Source: Halomonas sp.
GTDB lineage: Bacteria > Pseudomonadota > Gammaproteobacteria > Pseudomonadales > Halomonadaceae
Direction: 5' to 3'
Assembly (NCBI RefSeq): GCF_014859505.1
Contig: NZ_JACUUD010000020.1
Location: 1 to 38,477 of the forward strand
DNA length: 38,477 nucleotides
Part shown: one piece after another, positions 17,635-24,509 of the stretch
How the letters are laid out: each line of letters begins with the position of its first letter
Position numbering within the stretch: the first letter of the stretch is position 1
Notes under the pieces: model-generated
Told to the model about the DNA's origin: nothing
The model's database searches: none
The model's input: only the letters and a program-made list of their open reading frames with translations
Position numbers and translations under genes: made by a program

Positions 17635-18891
17635 TCAGCTCACGCTGCGTCCGTCCTGCCGATGGCGATAGAAGAAGCGCAGCATCTCCTTCCCGGCGTC
17701 CGGGCCTCTGGGATCGGTATAGCTTCCCTGCGCACTACCTCCCGACCAGGCGTGGCCCGCGCCCGTTACCCGCCACTGCTCCAGGCGTGGCTCGCCCTCG
17801 GCGTCGTGATGCGTGGTACGGGTATAGGCATGGCCATTGACCACCCGCCCCTGCTCCACCGTGACCCTGGCGCTGCCCGCGCCGGACCTTGCCGACTCGC
17901 TCGCTCGGCGCGAGGCGGCGTACTGGGCGGCAACGCGCTGCGCGTTGCTGGGGTGCACGGTGGTGTCGTGATCGCCGTGAAAGATGATGGCAGGCACCTC
18001 GGACGCCCATCCGGACGCTCGGCCCCTACCGCCACCCAGGGGGCCCGTTCCCCCCCGCATTGCCCCCAGGGCATCGGGGAGACTCTGAGCCACGCCGTGT
18101 GGTAGCCCGGAGTGCACGCCTACCGCCGCATAGAGGTCCGGGTAGGTCATCGCCAGGGTCGTTGCCATGGCCCCACCGGCCGATAGCCCGGCGACATAGA
18201 CCCGGCTTGCATCGAGGTCGTAGGTGTCGATGACCTGGCGGGTCATGGCCGCGAGAATCGCCGGTTCACCGCCCTCACGCTGCTGGTCCTCGGCCCTGAA
18301 CCAGTTCCAGCACTTCGAATGGTTGGCGGTCACCGGCTGTGCCGGATAGAGCACGCAACACAGCTGTTCTTCGGCCAGCCGGTTCATGTTGGTTCCGACA
18401 GCGAAGTCATCGGGGGTCTGCGTGCAGCCATGCAGCATGACCACCAGCGGCAATGCCTGGCCATGATAGCCACTCGGTAGATACAGCTTGTAATCGCGCG
18501 TGCCGGCATGATGGGTACAGCGACCCGCGGTGAACGCGCCGGGCTCGGCTGCCTCGTCGATGCCCCGTGCCGGCTCGAGCGGCACAACGGACTCACGCAA
18601 CTGGCGCCACTTGTCGCGCCAGGCAGGAGACAGCCCGATGTCACCACCCGGGTCAGACGCCGATCTCGACTCCGGCACTTCCCCGTCCATGACCCGGCAG
18701 GTCCCCTCGAAGGTACTGCCCATGCGGGGAGTACCCGCGCGGCCCGGGTCAGCCTGCATTTCGTCTCCCATGCCCTGGGATGTGGCCTCGGGCATGGCGC
18801 CCCGGAGGACGGCCATGGCCTCGTGCAGCTTCCCCGCGCGGGTGAGCCGCGTCGCTTCTTCCATTTTTCGCGTCATGGTGGCGTCGATCAT
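17635..18891 (-). CDS. PHB-depolymerase-family esterase (alpha/beta hydrolase)
   Basis: A 418-aa serine esterase of the PHB depolymerase/feruloyl esterase (LpqC-like) family. The triad is visible: Ser237 in the lipase box GLSAGG, Asp309 in HGDHDTTV and His380 in GAGHAWSGG; VVMLHGCTQTPDDFA supplies the oxyanion hole. The first 35 residues (MEEATRLTRAGKLHEAMAVL) look like a TPR-type helix pair, and residues 40-100 are low-complexity. No signal peptide is seen, so intracellular action on PHA or short-chain esters is inferred. The ATG at 18891 has AGGG nine bases upstream, whereas the ATG at 18900 has it directly adjacent. It is second in an operon with the copG-like gene. Confidence 0.82.
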   Translation of the reverse strand: MIDATMTRKMEEATRLTRAGKLHEAMAVLRGAMPEATSQGMGDEMQADPGRAGTPRMGSTFEGTCRVMDGEVPESRSASDPGGDIGLSPAWRDKWRQLRESVVPLEPARGIDEAAEPGAFTAGRCTHHAGTRDYKLYLPSGYHGQALPLVVMLHGCTQTPDDFAVGTNMNRLAEEQLCCVLYPAQPVTANHSKCWNWFRAEDQQREGGEPAILAAMTRQVIDTYDLDASRVYVAGLSAGGAMATTLAMTYPDLYAAVGVHSGLPHGVAQSLPDALGAMRGGTGPLGGGRGRASGWASEVPAIIFHGDHDTTVHPSNAQRVAAQYAASRRASESARSGAGSARVTVEQGRVVNGHAYTRTTHHDAEGEPRLEQWRVTGAGHAWSGGSAQGSYTDPRGPDAGKEMLRFFYRHRQDGRSVS

Positions 18892-18914
18892 CGTCAACAT
18901 CCCTATTCAGTGAT

Positions 18915-19331
18915 TCAGTGGATCCGATCCGCCAGGGCAGCCTTCACCGCGGCGCTGGCATGCAGGGCCCCCAACACGACTACCGATTCGATGGTGGCGC
19001 GGGCAAGCTCCGGTGAGACATCCCCGGCGATGCGGGCCAGCCCAATCACCTGGATCTGCAGCACTTCTCCGGCGGCCTGCAGTGCCTCGAGATCGCTGCG
19101 ACTGAAGTCCTGCAGGCCCAGCACGAAAGCCTTGCGCGCCACGGTTTCCCTGACGACTTCCGCATGGGTGGCCAGCTGGTTGCGGATCGCCGTGCGAATC
19201 AGATCGGTACGGTTGGAGTAGAACCCTTCCTGGACCAGCAGATCGATCTGCCCCAGATCGACCACCCCCAGGTTGATGGTGATCTTTTCGCTGGCATCGC
19301 CGCCCTTGCGGCGCAATTCATGCACGCTCAT
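18915..19331 (-). CDS. Ribbon-helix-helix (CopG-like) transcriptional regulator
   Basis: A 138-aa protein with an N-terminal ribbon-helix-helix domain at about residues 16-52: a beta strand KITINLGVVDL followed by two helices with the typical SNRTDLIRTAIRNQL segment. The remaining 85 residues are helical, with an Ala/Val-rich C-terminus, perhaps for oligomerisation or ligand binding. The ATG has GAGGT about 8 bases upstream. It precedes the esterase by 14-23 bp and probably controls its own operon; a strong promoter and a 16-bp palindrome lie upstream. Target and signal are unknown. Confidence 0.85.
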   Translation of the reverse strand: MSVHELRRKGGDASEKITINLGVVDLGQIDLLVQEGFYSNRTDLIRTAIRNQLATHAEVVRETVARKAFVLGLQDFSRSDLEALQAAGEVLQIQVIGLARIAGDVSPELARATIESVVVLGALHASAAVKAALADRIH

Positions 19332-19427
19332 CCGTGATACCTCGTTGGCCCAGGAGGGAAGCCTCTCGCCCGGCGCTTATTGAACATCTTACGAATCCCA
19401 TAAAAACATCCAAATGTATTCCATATA

Positions 19428-19443
19428 CCATCCATATGGATGG
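19428..19443. promoter_or_regulatory. 16-bp perfect palindrome, likely operator
   Basis: CCATCCATATGGATGG is its own reverse complement. It lies at about +7 to +22 of the predicted copG promoter, in a local AT-rich patch, with another CCATAT half (19421-19426) beside it. The position suits a repressor site for the RHH regulator. Confidence 0.6.
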
Positions 19444-19456
19444 CTTAATGAGTGGT

Positions 19457-19484
19457 ATAGTAGGCCAGCCGGGGCAATAGTCAA
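19457..19484 (-). promoter_or_regulatory. Predicted sigma-70 promoter of the copG-esterase operon
   Basis: On the minus strand, -35 TTGACT (19484-19479), a 16-bp spacer and -10 TACTAT (19462-19457) predict a start near 19450 and a leader of about 120 nt before the copG-like ATG. Confidence 0.6.
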
Positions 19485-19500
19485 GCCGCGGACAGAGGAA

Positions 19501-19526
19501 AACGACCCGCCGACGGTTGGGTCGTT
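19501..19526. other. Inverted repeat in the copG/siaA divergent region
   Basis: AACGACCC (19501-19508) and GGGTCGTT (19519-19526) form a perfect 8-bp inverted repeat with a 10-nt spacer. The 440-bp region between copG and siaA (19332-19772) holds this repeat, the palindrome and the copG promoter; I could not identify a convincing siaA promoter in it. Confidence 0.4.
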
Positions 19527-19772
19527 ACGCAGGTGTCGGGAATGAAGTAACAGGAAAGCAAGATCGCACAGGCCCGGACCCATGCCAGACAGCAAAGGGC
19601 GCTAGTCGCCAATCCCCACTTCGCCTGTAGGAGATCGCCGCACTCGAGGGGTGGGCAATGTCGGTAAATCGCGCTGCGTTGACGGTGCCGGGATCCGGCC
19701 ATCGCCTGCATCGCCGCTTTATGGCAATGTCTGACAGTGGATGGAACCCAAACGTCACGAGACTCGCATGCC

Positions 19773-21824
19773 ATGGCAGCTCGACTCGGCCTACGCGGTA
19801 AATCGGTTAGCCTCCTCCTGCTGGCCTGCCTGCTGGCACTGATGCCGGCGGGGCTGATCGGCTGGAGGGCAGTCGCCGAGGTCCGCGATCATTTCGCCGG
19901 CGCCTTTGCCGAGCAGTACACCCTGCTGCAGATGCAGAGGGTGATCGCGCCCGTGACGCGGGAACTTGCCCTGTCACGAAGACTAGCCGACTCCATCGTG
20001 ACCCGTGAATGGCTGCGCGCCCCCGATGACCCGACGCGCCAGGCGCGGTTCCTCGCCGAGGCCGAGGGCTTCCGGCAACACTTCGCCAGCCGCTCCTACT
20101 TCATCATCGACCATGCCTCCGGGGACTACTACCTCGGGGATGGCGGCGGGGACAACGGCACAGAACCGCGCTATCGCCTGTCCCAGGAGGCACCTGACCA
20201 TGCCTGGTACTTCGCCACCATGGCCAGCACCTCCACCTACGACATCAACGTCAGCGCCGACCAGGCACTCGATAGGGCCATGGTCCGGTTCAACGTGAAG
20301 GTGATGGACAACGGCACCCTGCTGGGCCTGGCCGGGGGCGGCATCGATCTTCAGCAGTTCATCCGACGCTTCCTGGGCAACACCCCGGCCGGCATGACAC
20401 CGATGCTGGTCGACTCCCGCGGCACCCTGCAGGTGCATCCCGACACCTCACGCATCGCTCTAGGTTCGGGCCGCCATCCACTGGGAGACGATGATCGCCC
20501 GCGGATCCAGACACTCGTCGGCGTGTCCGACCGTGAGCCACTGCGGCGGGCCATGCACGACGCCATGCGCCGTCCCGGGACCGTGGTGGCACTGGAGGCC
20601 GAACTGGAGGGGGAGCCCCGGCTGCTGAGCGTGGGCTACCTGCCGGAGCTGCAGTGGCTACTGATCACCGCTCTGGACCTGCAGGCCGCTCCGCTCCTGG
20701 ACCGCCGCTGGTTCTGGCCCATGGTGCTCGCCTTCGGCCTATTGCTGGCGCTGCTGACAGCCAGCTTCGCCTACAGCACCCATCGCCTGATCCTCGCCCC
20801 GCTGCAGCGGCTGAAGCTCTCCGCCCAGGCCATCGCCGAGGGCCACTACCACTCCCGGCTTCCCACCGAGCGCCGGGACGAGATCGGCGAGTTGTCGCGG
20901 ACCTTTGCTCATATGGCAAGCCGGGTGGAAGGCTATACCCGAGATCTGGAAGGCCAGGTGCGCGAACGCACACGGGATCTCGAGGAAACCCATGCCCAGA
21001 TGGTGACGGCCCACCGCCAGCTGGAGGCCTCCATCCAGTATGCCAGCATCATCCAGCAGGCGATCCTGCCCGACGACGCCCTCGATCGGCACCTGCGGCA
21101 TCGCTATGGGGTCCTCTGGAAGCCGCGCGACGTGGTGGGCGGCGATTTCTACGTCTTCCGCGCCACCGAGCGCGGCTACCTGCTGGGCATCGTCGACTGT
21201 GCCGGCCACGGCGTGCCGGGTGCCCTGATGACCATGCTCGCCCGGGGCATCATCGACCACGCCCTCGCCCGACAGGGCGTCGAGGATCCGGCGGCCGTGC
21301 TGGGGGAGATCGACCGCCAGGGCCGCTTGCTGCTGCCCCAGGACCAACTGCCCGCCTCCATCGCCACCAGCATGGACATGGGCCTGGCCTGGGTCGACCC
21401 GACCGCCGGGACCCTGACCTTCGCCGGGGCCAAGATCGACCTCCATGCCAGCAACGGCGAGCGTCTGGAGACGCTGCCCGGCCACCGACGCGCCCTGGGC
21501 CATCGCCGGCCGACCCGCTTTGAAAACCGGGTGGCGCCGCTGCGCCGCGGCTGGACCTACACCCTGTGCAGCGACGGCTTCCTCGACCAGGCCGGGGGCA
21601 GCGACGGCTTCGGCTTCGGCAACCGCCGCTTCCGGGCGCTGCTGCTGGCCCAGGCCGGTCAACCGCTGGCGGAGCAGATGGCGGCCTTTGAGGCAGCCCT
21701 GCGCGATCACCAGGGCGACCTCTCCCAGCGTGACGACATCACGCTGCTGGCCTTCCGCCTGGAGCCGCAACCCCCGGACACCACTTCCCCACCGCCACCC
21801 CAGGAGACGGGCAACACCCGTTGA
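19773..21824 (+). CDS. siaA: SiaA-like membrane PP2C-type phosphatase
   Basis: In Pseudomonas SiaA dephosphorylates SiaC, freeing it to activate the cyclase SiaD. The 683-aa product has TM1 (about 10-30), a periplasmic sensor of about 280 residues with Cache-like segments (YFIIDHASGDYYLGD, TPMLVDSRGTL), TM2 (about 313-335), HAMP (RLILAPLQRLKLSAQAIA), a coiled coil, and a SpoIIE/PP2C phosphatase domain. Metal ligands appear as Asp458 (VGGDFYVF), Asp475 (VDCAGHGVPGA) and Asp654/655 (RDDITLL). ATG 19773 is chosen because it starts just before the basic/TM1 region; a GTG at 19737 is possible. No strong SD is present. siaB starts 9 bp after the stop. Confidence 0.87.
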   Translation: MAARLGLRGKSVSLLLLACLLALMPAGLIGWRAVAEVRDHFAGAFAEQYTLLQMQRVIAPVTRELALSRRLADSIVTREWLRAPDDPTRQARFLAEAEGFRQHFASRSYFIIDHASGDYYLGDGGGDNGTEPRYRLSQEAPDHAWYFATMASTSTYDINVSADQALDRAMVRFNVKVMDNGTLLGLAGGGIDLQQFIRRFLGNTPAGMTPMLVDSRGTLQVHPDTSRIALGSGRHPLGDDDRPRIQTLVGVSDREPLRRAMHDAMRRPGTVVALEAELEGEPRLLSVGYLPELQWLLITALDLQAAPLLDRRWFWPMVLAFGLLLALLTASFAYSTHRLILAPLQRLKLSAQAIAEGHYHSRLPTERRDEIGELSRTFAHMASRVEGYTRDLEGQVRERTRDLEETHAQMVTAHRQLEASIQYASIIQQAILPDDALDRHLRHRYGVLWKPRDVVGGDFYVFRATERGYLLGIVDCAGHGVPGALMTMLARGIIDHALARQGVEDPAAVLGEIDRQGRLLLPQDQLPASIATSMDMGLAWVDPTAGTLTFAGAKIDLHASNGERLETLPGHRRALGHRRPTRFENRVAPLRRGWTYTLCSDGFLDQAGGSDGFGFGNRRFRALLLAQAGQPLAEQMAAFEAALRDHQGDLSQRDDITLLAFRLEPQPPDTTSPPPPQETGNTR

Positions 21825-21833
21825 GGAGAGCCC

Positions 21834-22367
21834 ATGGACCTGCTGAGCATGCGGGAAAGCTACCAACGCGATCGCATCATGCTGTGCTTCAATGGCCCCA
21901 TCTCGCGCAGCCTGATCGAGGAGATCGGCAAGGCGCTCCGCAACTACCTCGACACCCAGCAGGCGACGCCGTCGGCGGCCATGGATGTCTTCGCCGTGTA
22001 TATCGAGATGACTCAGAATATTCGCCACTATGCCCGCCGCCAGGGCTATGACGAGAGCCAGGCCTCGGCCACGGTGGCGGTGGCCCAGGACGCCGAGGGG
22101 CGCTATCTGGTCTCGGCGGGCAACCTGGTCGATTTCGCCGACGGGGAACGCCTGACCGGCATGATCGAGGCGCTGGCGCCGCTTGACCGCGCCGAGCTCA
22201 AGGCCGCCTACAAGGAGCAGCTGCGACGCCCCCGCGATGCCGAACGCCAGAGTGGTGCCGGCCTGGGGCTGTTGGACATGGCCCGCAAGGCCTCCCGCCC
22301 CCTCCAGGCCTCGCTGCAGGCGTTGCCCGACGGGCAAGGTTTCTTCAGCCTGACCGCTACCATCTGA
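21834..22367 (+). CDS. siaB: SiaB family protein kinase
   Basis: A 177-aa cytoplasmic protein matching SiaB, the kinase that phosphorylates SiaC on a threonine. A GHKL-like N-box is visible as EMTQNIRHYA around residue 62, and a glycine-rich GAGLGLLDMARKAS segment near residue 142 resembles the G2 box. It has no membrane segment. The ATG has GAGGAGA upstream. Its stop overlaps the first possible siaC start in TGATG. Assignment rests on these motifs plus the complete siaABCD order. Confidence 0.85.
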   Translation: MDLLSMRESYQRDRIMLCFNGPISRSLIEEIGKALRNYLDTQQATPSAAMDVFAVYIEMTQNIRHYARRQGYDESQASATVAVAQDAEGRYLVSAGNLVDFADGERLTGMIEALAPLDRAELKAAYKEQLRRPRDAERQSGAGLGLLDMARKASRPLQASLQALPDGQGFFSLTATI

Positions 22368-22774
22368 TGGGTACCATGATCACCATGACTCCTGACCTCG
22401 ACATTCCCGGCAGCCAGTCGACGCCAGCCATCCAGACCAGCTGGCAGGCAGGCCGTCTGGCCATGCAGGGTGACTCCTACCCCGAGAACTCCTACGAACT
22501 CTTCGACCAGGTGATCGACTGGGTGCGGCGCTACCTCGACGACGAGGTGCGGCCGCTGCACCTCGATCTAAGCCTTGTCTACCTCAACACCAGCTCGGTG
22601 AAGGCGATGATGGACATCTTCGACCTGCTCGAGGAGGCCCACGCCGAGGGCCGCGAGGTATCGGTCGAGTGGCTCTACGACGCCCGCAACGAACGCATCG
22701 CCGAGCTGGCAGACGAATTCCGCGAGGACTGCAGCTACCCCTTCGCCATCAATCCCACGGCGACCCCGGCATGA
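22367..22774 (+). CDS. siaC: SiaC regulatory phosphoprotein (DUF1987)
   Basis: The phosphorylation-switched activator of SiaD. The 135-aa product carries the family core IPGSQSTPAI, QGDSYPENSYELF and the YLNTSSVKAMMDIFDLLEEA segment. Thr75 (numbered from the first ATG) lies in LNTSS, at the place of the regulatory phospho-threonine (Thr68) of P. aeruginosa SiaC. Three ATGs are possible: 22367 (coupled to siaB), 22376 and 22385; the last best matches the family N-terminus, so the true protein may be 129 aa. The end overlaps siaD in ATGA. Confidence 0.87.
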   Translation: MGTMITMTPDLDIPGSQSTPAIQTSWQAGRLAMQGDSYPENSYELFDQVIDWVRRYLDDEVRPLHLDLSLVYLNTSSVKAMMDIFDLLEEAHAEGREVSVEWLYDARNERIAELADEFREDCSYPFAINPTATPA

Positions 22775-23553
22775 CACGCCGGGACGAGCAGGCGCTGCTC
22801 GAGCGGGTCGCCGCGCTGCTGGCGGAGCCGGCCCATGCCGGCCATCCGCTCCACGAGGCGCTGGAGGCCCTCGCCGCCCGGTACCACAGCCAGCAGAAGC
22901 AGCTTGAGCGCCTGATCAGCATCTCCGACCGCTACCAGCAGCTGGCCCTGGAGGCGCGACAGGTGACCCAGAAGCGCTATGAACGCAGCCTGCACCGTCA
23001 GCAGAAGCTGTCGCGCATCTCCGACGGCTACCAGGCGATGATGCGCGAGCGCAACCAGGCGCTTCACCAGGCCTCCACCCACGACCCCCTCACCCAGCTG
23101 GCCAATCGCCGGCTGATCGACGAGCGCCTCCACCAGCTCGAGACCGCCGGACGGAACTACACCCTGGCCCTGCTGGACATCGACCGCTTCAAGAGCATCA
23201 ACGACCGCCATGGTCACGACGTCGGCGACCGGCTGCTGGTGGCCATCGCGGACGCCATGCGCAAGGTGCTGAGGGAATCCGACCTGTGCGGGCGCTGGGG
23301 CGGCGAGGAGTTCATCCTGCTGTTCGCCGAGACCCGGATCGACGAGGCCAGCGCGATCGTGGAGAGGCTGCGGGATCGCGTGTCGGCCGTCATTGTCACC
23401 AGCTGCGAGGAGCGGCTATCGGTGACCCTCAGCGCCGGGATCAGCGAGCATCGCATCGGCGAACGCCATATCATCACCCTGCAGCGCGCCGATCAGGCCC
23501 TGCTGGAGGCCAAGCGCAGCGGTCGCGACCGCTGTCTCATTGCCTCCCGCTGA
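22771..23553 (+). CDS. siaD: SiaD-like diguanylate cyclase
   Basis: Makes cyclic di-GMP from two GTP when bound by unphosphorylated SiaC, promoting aggregation and biofilm in Pseudomonas. The 260-aa cytoplasmic protein has an N-terminal helical coiled-coil region (about residues 1-110, rich in Gln, Arg and Leu) that should bind SiaC, then a GGDEF domain starting at THDPLTQLANRR. The active-site motif is GGEEF and an inhibitory I-site, RESD, stands five residues before it, so product inhibition is expected. It overlaps siaC by 4 bp. A strong hairpin follows 25 bp after the stop. Confidence 0.9.
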   Translation: MTRRDEQALLERVAALLAEPAHAGHPLHEALEALAARYHSQQKQLERLISISDRYQQLALEARQVTQKRYERSLHRQQKLSRISDGYQAMMRERNQALHQASTHDPLTQLANRRLIDERLHQLETAGRNYTLALLDIDRFKSINDRHGHDVGDRLLVAIADAMRKVLRESDLCGRWGGEEFILLFAETRIDEASAIVERLRDRVSAVIVTSCEERLSVTLSAGISEHRIGERHIITLQRADQALLEAKRSGRDRCLIASR

Positions 23554-23578
23554 GCGCCACCTGCACCGGCCCAAACGC

Positions 23579-23608
23579 AGGACGGGCACCCCTGGGGGTG
23601 CCCGTCCT
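23579..23608. terminator. Bidirectional terminator between siaD and sucD
   Basis: A near-continuous palindrome pairs AGGACGGGCACCCC (23579-23592) with GGGGTGCCCGTCCT (23595-23608). It lies between the convergent siaD and sucD stops and likely insulates both operons. Confidence 0.8.
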
Positions 23609-23636
23609 GTGGTTCCTCGCCTCGGCAGGGATCGGC

Positions 23637-24509
23637 TTACCAGCCGGTCACTTCCTTCAGGGCATCGCCGATCTCGGCCAGCGAACGCACGGTCTTCACG
23701 CCAGCGTCCTCGAGGGCAGCGAACTTCTCGTCCGCGGTGCCCTTGCCACCGGAGATGATGGCACCCGCATGGCCCATGCGCTTGCCCGCAGGCGCGGTCA
23801 CACCGGCGATGTAGGAGACCACCGGCTTGGAGACATTGGCCTTGATGTAGGCCGCTGCCTCTTCCTCGGCGGTGCCGCCGATCTCGCCGATCATCACGAT
23901 TGCCTCGGTGGCCGGGTCCTTCTCGAACATCGCGAGGATGTCGATGAAGTTGGAACCCGGGATCGGGTCGCCGCCGATGCCCACGCAGGTGGACTGGCCA
24001 AAGCCATGGTCGGTGGTCTGCTTGACCGCTTCATAGGTCAGGGTGCCGGAACGCGACACGATGCCGACCTTGCCAGGCTTGTGGATGTGGCCCGGCATGA
24101 TACCGATCTTGCACTCGCCCGGCGTGATCACGCCCGGGCAGTTCGGGCCGATCAGGCGCACGCCCAGCTCGTCGCACTTCACCTTGACGTCGAGCATGTC
24201 CAGGGTCGGAATGCCCTCGGTGATGCAGACGATCAGCTTGATGCCGGAGTTGGCGGCCTCCAGGATGGAGTCCTTGCAGAACGGGGCCGGCACGTAGATC
24301 ACGCTGGCCTCGGCGCCGGTCTTCTCCACGGCCTCCTTGACGGTGTTGAACACCGGCAGGCCCAGGTGCTCCTGGCCACCCTTGCCCGGGGTCACGCCGC
24401 CGACCATCTGGGTACCGTAGGCGATCGCCTGCTCGGAGTGGAAGGTCCCCTGGCCGCCGGTAAAGCCCTGGCAGATGACCTTGGTGTTCTTGTCGATCAG
24501 GATACTCAT
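23637..24509 (-). CDS. sucD: Succinyl-CoA synthetase subunit alpha
   Basis: Alpha subunit of the TCA enzyme converting succinyl-CoA to succinate with ATP or GTP formation. The 290-aa product has the CoA-binding Rossmann start [14 protein letters not shown], the [20 protein letters not shown] ligase signature, and the phosphorylated His247 in [14 protein letters not shown]. It overlaps the sucC stop by one base (TAATG), so subunits are translationally coupled. It is the last gene of the TCA block and is closed by the 23579-23608 hairpin. Confidence 0.96.

Follow-up and report, generated by a model that had tools for sequence, protein, structure and literature searches.

The siaABCD genes of Pseudomonas aeruginosa encode a phospho-switch controlling the synthesis of cyclic diguanylate (c-di-GMP), whose mechanism has been published (PMC7278518) and is also treated in passages of PMC8457831 and PMC7647112. 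According to passages of PMC8457831 (eLife 2021), residue T68 of the phosphoprotein SiaC goes in between the stalk helices of the diguanylate cyclase SiaD, where it touches S82 and Q86, and its phosphorylation blocks the binding of SiaC to SiaD; the Ser and Gln of two SiaD docking motifs, S50/Q54 and S82/Q86, are reported there as contacts and mutated sites, and SiaD R84 is said to touch SiaC E110. As for the input, the P. aeruginosa pathway reacts to carbon availability according to passages of PMC7647112, and those of PMC12834913 propose SiaA as a sensor of membrane perturbation upon temperature downshift. Here we describe the operon found at 19773-23553 of a 38,477-nucleotide stretch of Halomonas sp. 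DNA (contig NZ_JACUUD010000020.1, hereafter the window), part of a 3.36-Mb draft genome, and we propose, with a probability of roughly 0.93, that it is an orthologous siaABCD switch working as in P. aeruginosa.

Organization of the operon and family membership

The window carries four contiguous and co-directional genes in the order A-B-C-D, with the following predicted products:

19773-21824, + strand: siaA, 683 amino acids; membrane PP2C phosphatase made of a transmembrane segment, a Cache-like sensor, a second transmembrane segment, HAMP, a coil and SpoIIE/PP2C (transmembrane limits set by eye)
21834-22367, + strand: siaB, 177 amino acids; SiaC kinase with an ExxxN N-box, E58 and N62 (NF038264; 6kko_A, E 1e-75)
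22367-22774, + strand (alternative starts 22376 and 22385): siaC, 135 amino acids; phosphoprotein, phospho-acceptor T75 in YLNTSS, equivalent to P. aeruginosa T68 (NF038265; 6k4f, 6kko)
22771-23553, + strand: siaD, 260 amino acids; diguanylate cyclase with docking residues S52/Q56 and S84/Q88, I-site RESD at 168-171 and GGEEF at 177-181 (NF038266; 7e6g, E 7e-74)

All four products exceeded the cut-offs of the NCBIfam equivalog models, with 910 bits against 700 for SiaA (NF038263), 289.9 against 225 for SiaB (NF038264), 207.5 against 150 for SiaC (NF038265) and 319 against 290 for SiaD (NF038266), which rules out a generic PP2C/GGDEF cluster misread as Sia. This profile search bears out the first-pass annotation of the DNA, which had described a complete siaABCD, and the junctions it gave are as claimed: siaA and siaB are separated by 9 bp, siaB and siaC overlap by 1 bp and siaC and siaD by 4 bp, the 1-bp figure holding only with the first of three in-frame ATG candidates of siaC (22367, 22376 and 22385). 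No clear Shine-Dalgarno sequence was seen by eye before any of the three. Since the solved SiaC aligns only from residue 7 of the reading that begins at 22367, a start at 22376 or 22385 appears at least as likely. In Pfam, SiaB belongs to DUF6272, SiaC to the SiaC family (PF09345) and SiaD to GGDEF; SiaA matches SpoIIE and HAMP, with dCache_1 at 29.4 bits, under its cut-off of 45. From siaA to siaD, the G+C content was 0.85-0.90 at the third codon position versus 0.41-0.48 at the second. The nearest solved chains were 6k4e for the PP2C part of SiaA (E 1e-96), 6kko_A for SiaB, 6k4f and 6kko for SiaC and 7e6g for SiaD. We take 6k4e and 6kko to be P. aeruginosa proteins, and the siaABCD genes of that species to be PA0172-PA0169. 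The chains 6k4f, 6kkp and 7e6g are P. aeruginosa proteins according to passages of PMC8457831 and PMC7647112.

Kinase, phosphoprotein and cyclase

Conservation was followed by aligning the window to as many as 80 loci (81 rows), these being the best 80 of 185 loci, with close relatives favoured. In SiaB, E58 and N62 are kept in 79/79 rows having a letter at those columns, and the glycine-rich GAGLG in 81/81. The YLNTSS of the window SiaC is the same as in the crystallised protein (6k4f/6kko), NTSS being invariant in all 81 rows, as is E110 (81/81); among the 12 SiaC contact positions named in passages of PMC8457831, 11 are the same in the window as in P. aeruginosa, the exception being I71, replaced by Val. 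The active region of SiaD runs in the order RESD-LCGRW-GGEEF; the R and D of RxxD are present in 81/81 rows and each GGEEF residue in 80 or 81 of them. When SiaD was aligned to 7e6g, the stalk showed the motifs ISDRYQ (distal) and ISDGYQ (proximal), with Ser and Gln present in both, the proximal Gln being kept in 81/81 rows. At the 13 proximal SiaD contact positions in the passages of PMC8457831, the window agrees at 10 and differs at V78 (Leu), R84 (Gly) and D91 (Glu). The phosphorylation site and most of the docking contacts are conserved on alignment, so that neither of the two alignment-based grounds for refutation named by the first-pass annotation applies, and the PP2C aspartates, SiaB N-box, SiaC phospho-threonine, GGEEF and RESD listed by the first-pass annotation are all present.

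The two docking motifs differ between the species in one respect. SiaD of P. aeruginosa has an Arg in the proximal motif (R84) and a Gly in the distal one (G52), whereas the window SiaD is reversed, with the codons placed as follows:

22930-22932, + strand: siaD codon for Arg 54, distal motif
23026-23028, + strand: siaD codon for Gly 86, proximal motif

The P. aeruginosa arrangement is found in 48 of the 81 rows and that of the window in 14, while 8 rows have Gly in both motifs, 2 have Arg in both and 9 have another arrangement; all 16 rows that carry Arg in the distal motif belong to the window or to Halomonas-type relatives (L002-L015, L019). Since the stalk Arg has moved from the proximal to the distal motif, the comparison suggests that the relative strength of the two docking sites could be reversed in the window with respect to P. 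aeruginosa.

SiaA sensor and phosphatase

The five PP2C aspartates of SiaA (458, 475, 601, 654 and 655), which include the metal-binding ones, are each kept in 79/79 rows. P. aeruginosa SiaA residue numbers were mapped onto the window through the 6k4e alignment. R652 and F612, both named in passages of PMC7647112, are kept; in the F612 substrate loop the window retains G-F, with F at the aligned position in 66 of the 79 rows and Y in 13. With the limits of the two parts set by hand and P. citronellolis as a stand-in for P. aeruginosa, the comparison with the Pseudomonas homologue gave identities of 45% for the sensor and 55% for the PP2C part, and a single residue fills 97% or more of the rows in 16/282 columns of the sensor and 56/214 columns of PP2C. 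Judged by these alignments, the SiaA sensor has diverged more than the phosphatase domain. The sensor also gave weak matches to the chemoreceptor domains 8bmv and 9b9s, which we take to be Cache domains.

Taken together, gene order, family membership, catalytic residues and most of the tested contact residues are conserved at the sequence level, and the direction of each step of the switch is carried over from P. aeruginosa by analogy. SiaB would put a phosphate on the threonine of YLNTSS, which would hold SiaC off the SiaD stalk, and SiaA, once activated through its periplasmic Cache-like domain, second transmembrane segment and HAMP, would dephosphorylate SiaC. Unphosphorylated SiaC would then dock on both stalk motifs and give an active SiaD dimer, leading to a rise in c-di-GMP that the RxxD I-site would cap through product inhibition. 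In this Halomonas, the outcome could be aggregation or exopolysaccharide production on an envelope or nutrient cue.

Distribution of the system

The 80 named loci (the best 80 of 185) come from Halomonas and relatives, Pseudomonas, Stutzerimonas, Telmatospirillum, Thauera, Ectothiorhodospira and others, and the A-B-C-D order is complete in 78 of them; the remaining two (L003, L055) are short contigs beginning inside siaB, and so are without siaA. The statement of the first-pass annotation that the system is known mainly from P. aeruginosa stands for experiment and fails for sequence, where it is widespread and each of the four proteins has its own NCBI equivalog model. The open-licence literature searched yielded no experimental study of Sia in Halomonas: the passages on siaABCD in PMC9239204 and PMC10413115 concern P. 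aeruginosa, SiaD is named once in the passages of PMC10434110, in an Oxalobacteraceae, and the passages of PMC12421958, which make no mention of SiaC or SiaD, deal with Halomonas c-di-GMP through another cyclase, DgcY, in the salt and cold response.

Co-occurrence was evaluated in 201 sampled genomes of the family (E<=1e-3 for SiaB and SiaC, E<=1e-60 for SiaD and E<=1e-150 for SiaA). SiaB, SiaC and SiaD were each found in the same 38 genomes, no SiaC match being obtained in the other 163, and SiaA was found in 37 of the 38. When the curated cut-offs were applied, 35, 37, 37 and 33 genomes were counted for A, B, C and D, respectively. In these sampled genomes siaABCD looks like a unit that is either retained or lost in its entirety. 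The closest named relative among the best 80 of 185 loci, Halomonas campaniensis 5AG (L002), has the same gene order, with sucD directly downstream and rnr upstream, and its proteins A to D are 84, 90, 91 and 90% identical to those of the window; it differs in that the esterase and RHH genes found upstream of siaA in the window (see below) were not found in its 16.4-kb locus.

The 38th genome (G024, 2.7 Mb) has a divergent siaA (32% identity) beside B, C and D. In this divergent operon (L087, C20:48500-56000), SiaC has NTGS at the place of NTSS, and SiaD (1546-2331, - strand) appears to have a single docking motif, RISDRLQ, since the listed frame shows no other ISDxxQ upstream of it. This operon could represent a form of the switch that naturally works with one docking site.

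Neighbouring genes and candidate output

Two genes lie upstream of siaA:

17635-18900, - strand: esterase of the polyhydroxybutyrate (PHB) depolymerase family
18915-19331, - strand: RHH_8 regulator

Downstream of siaD, sucD, sucC, lpd, sucB and sucA are arranged convergently, with 83 bp between the stop codons of siaD and sucD. Counted over the 80 loci, as lower bounds since some loci are short, sucD is no more than 400 bp away from siaD in at least 17 and is present anywhere in the locus in at least 35, and the RHH/esterase pair occurs at at least 4, three times upstream and once downstream of the operon (L018). The first-pass annotation had mentioned the neighbouring tricarboxylic acid (TCA) cycle genes and polyhydroxyalkanoate (PHA) esterase, which by these counts are not informative: the TCA genes were rejected as functional partners because sucD is convergent and near siaD in so few loci, and the esterase because its pair with RHH is rarer still and once on the opposite side. 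Both neighbours look incidental, and no part of the sia system.

In the genome as a whole, 16 GGDEF matches (15 above cut-off) and 3 PilZ matches were obtained. On another contig (C151, L082; 2393-5865, - strand), a PilZ-HlyD fusion adjoins a family-2 glycosyltransferase, a layout that we take to be that of Alg44/Alg8, and this pair is a candidate c-di-GMP target and sia output. Homologues of the Alg8-like glycosyltransferase are present in 69 of the 201 sampled family genomes, in 27/38 sia-positive versus 42/163 sia-negative ones (Fisher p 3e-7). Within the genus the figures are 15/20 and 15/29 (p 0.14), and the idea of an Alg8-like synthase tracking sia was dropped because this association is not significant; given the difference between the two p values, most of the family-wide signal may be due to shared ancestry. 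BcsB gave no match in the genome, with matches in 2 of 14 control genomes, and PelD gave none in the genome nor in the 14 controls, which makes the PelD result uninformative. A PilZ domain fused to HD_5 is encoded on a further contig (C19, L083; 3518-5254, + strand), just downstream of a GGDEF protein whose N-terminus looks substrate-binding-like by eye.

A more specific scenario joins three elements: a Halomonas SiaA responding to its own stimulus, be it osmotic state, a compatible solute or some other small molecule; SiaD c-di-GMP feeding the Alg8/Alg44-like synthase rather than the outputs used in P. aeruginosa; and, in this clade, a distal SiaC site that the moved stalk arginine would make the stronger of the two, contrary to P. 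aeruginosa. Such a stimulus is conceivable given the Cache-like SiaA domain and its weak matches to ligand domains of chemoreceptors, and we consider the combination of all three speculative and rather unlikely.

Weighing of the alternatives

Several observations weigh against an orthologous switch working as in P. aeruginosa. The conservation counts are drawn from the best 80 of 185 loci, hence they overstate universality, and even among these the stalk Ser of SiaD gives way to Ala in 22 of the 81 rows in the distal motif and in 17 in the proximal one, and the distal Gln to His in 11, although the window itself keeps Ser and Gln in both motifs. Two SiaD contacts with SiaC are changed in the window, R84 being Gly and D91 Glu. 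In SiaA, passages of PMC7647112 propose an E609-R618 salt bridge from modelling; the E609 position, which is E in 57/79 rows, is Ser in the window, where the Arg is kept, and the bridge is no defining feature of siaABCD. Among the 37 sampled genomes in which SiaA was found, G027 carries a stop codon within the gene.

The loss of R84 could also be accounted for if the four proteins formed a switch in which SiaC mainly regulates a target other than SiaD, for example a sigma/anti-sigma pathway. Passages of PMC7647112 report that SiaC structurally resembles anti-sigma factor antagonists, and P. aeruginosa does have partner switches that act on other targets, such as HsbR/RpoS (PMC6482189). Such rewiring is nevertheless very improbable in view of the Ser and Gln kept in both docking motifs of SiaD, of the presence of siaD beside siaC in 38/38 sampled siaC genomes and of the single SiaC-family match in the genome. 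The operon could otherwise be a decayed or silent relic without a role in c-di-GMP, and the 163 family genomes without a SiaC match show that it is dispensable. In a simple scan of the + strand of 19300-23700 no sigma-70-like site was found, which is weak evidence in the same direction, and the promoter/terminator scan returned 1 and 2 sites versus 0.4 and 1.2 expected, nothing convincing. A relic is, however, hard to reconcile with frames that are all unbroken, with catalytic residues that are kept and with the 84-91% protein identity to H. campaniensis, which together with the codon-position bias suggests purifying selection; we regard it as the least probable explanation, and a functional siaABCD switch acting on SiaD is preferred.

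Comparison with known systems

What is new here is a complete Halomonas copy of a switch already worked out in P. aeruginosa, and it is an ordinary example. Its presence outside Pseudomonas as an intact four-gene module makes the fixed parts (active sites and phospho-site) readable against a drifting sensor, and a halophile, mostly harmless as such bacteria are, would be a convenient setting to learn the input of SiaA, for which several cues have been reported in P. aeruginosa; beyond that, little changes. The operon resembles P. aeruginosa siaABCD in gene order (taken from the papers), domains, phospho-threonine, N-box, PP2C residues, stalk Ser/Gln, I-site and GGEEF. It also resembles the HsbR/HsbA/HsbD and BgrSTUWV systems, in which, according to passages of PMC8457831, a diguanylate cyclase is likewise under the control of a partner-switch protein with a STAS domain. 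By description, the Sia system is set apart from both by a SiaC in a Pfam family of its own, PF09345, and a SiaB in DUF6272.

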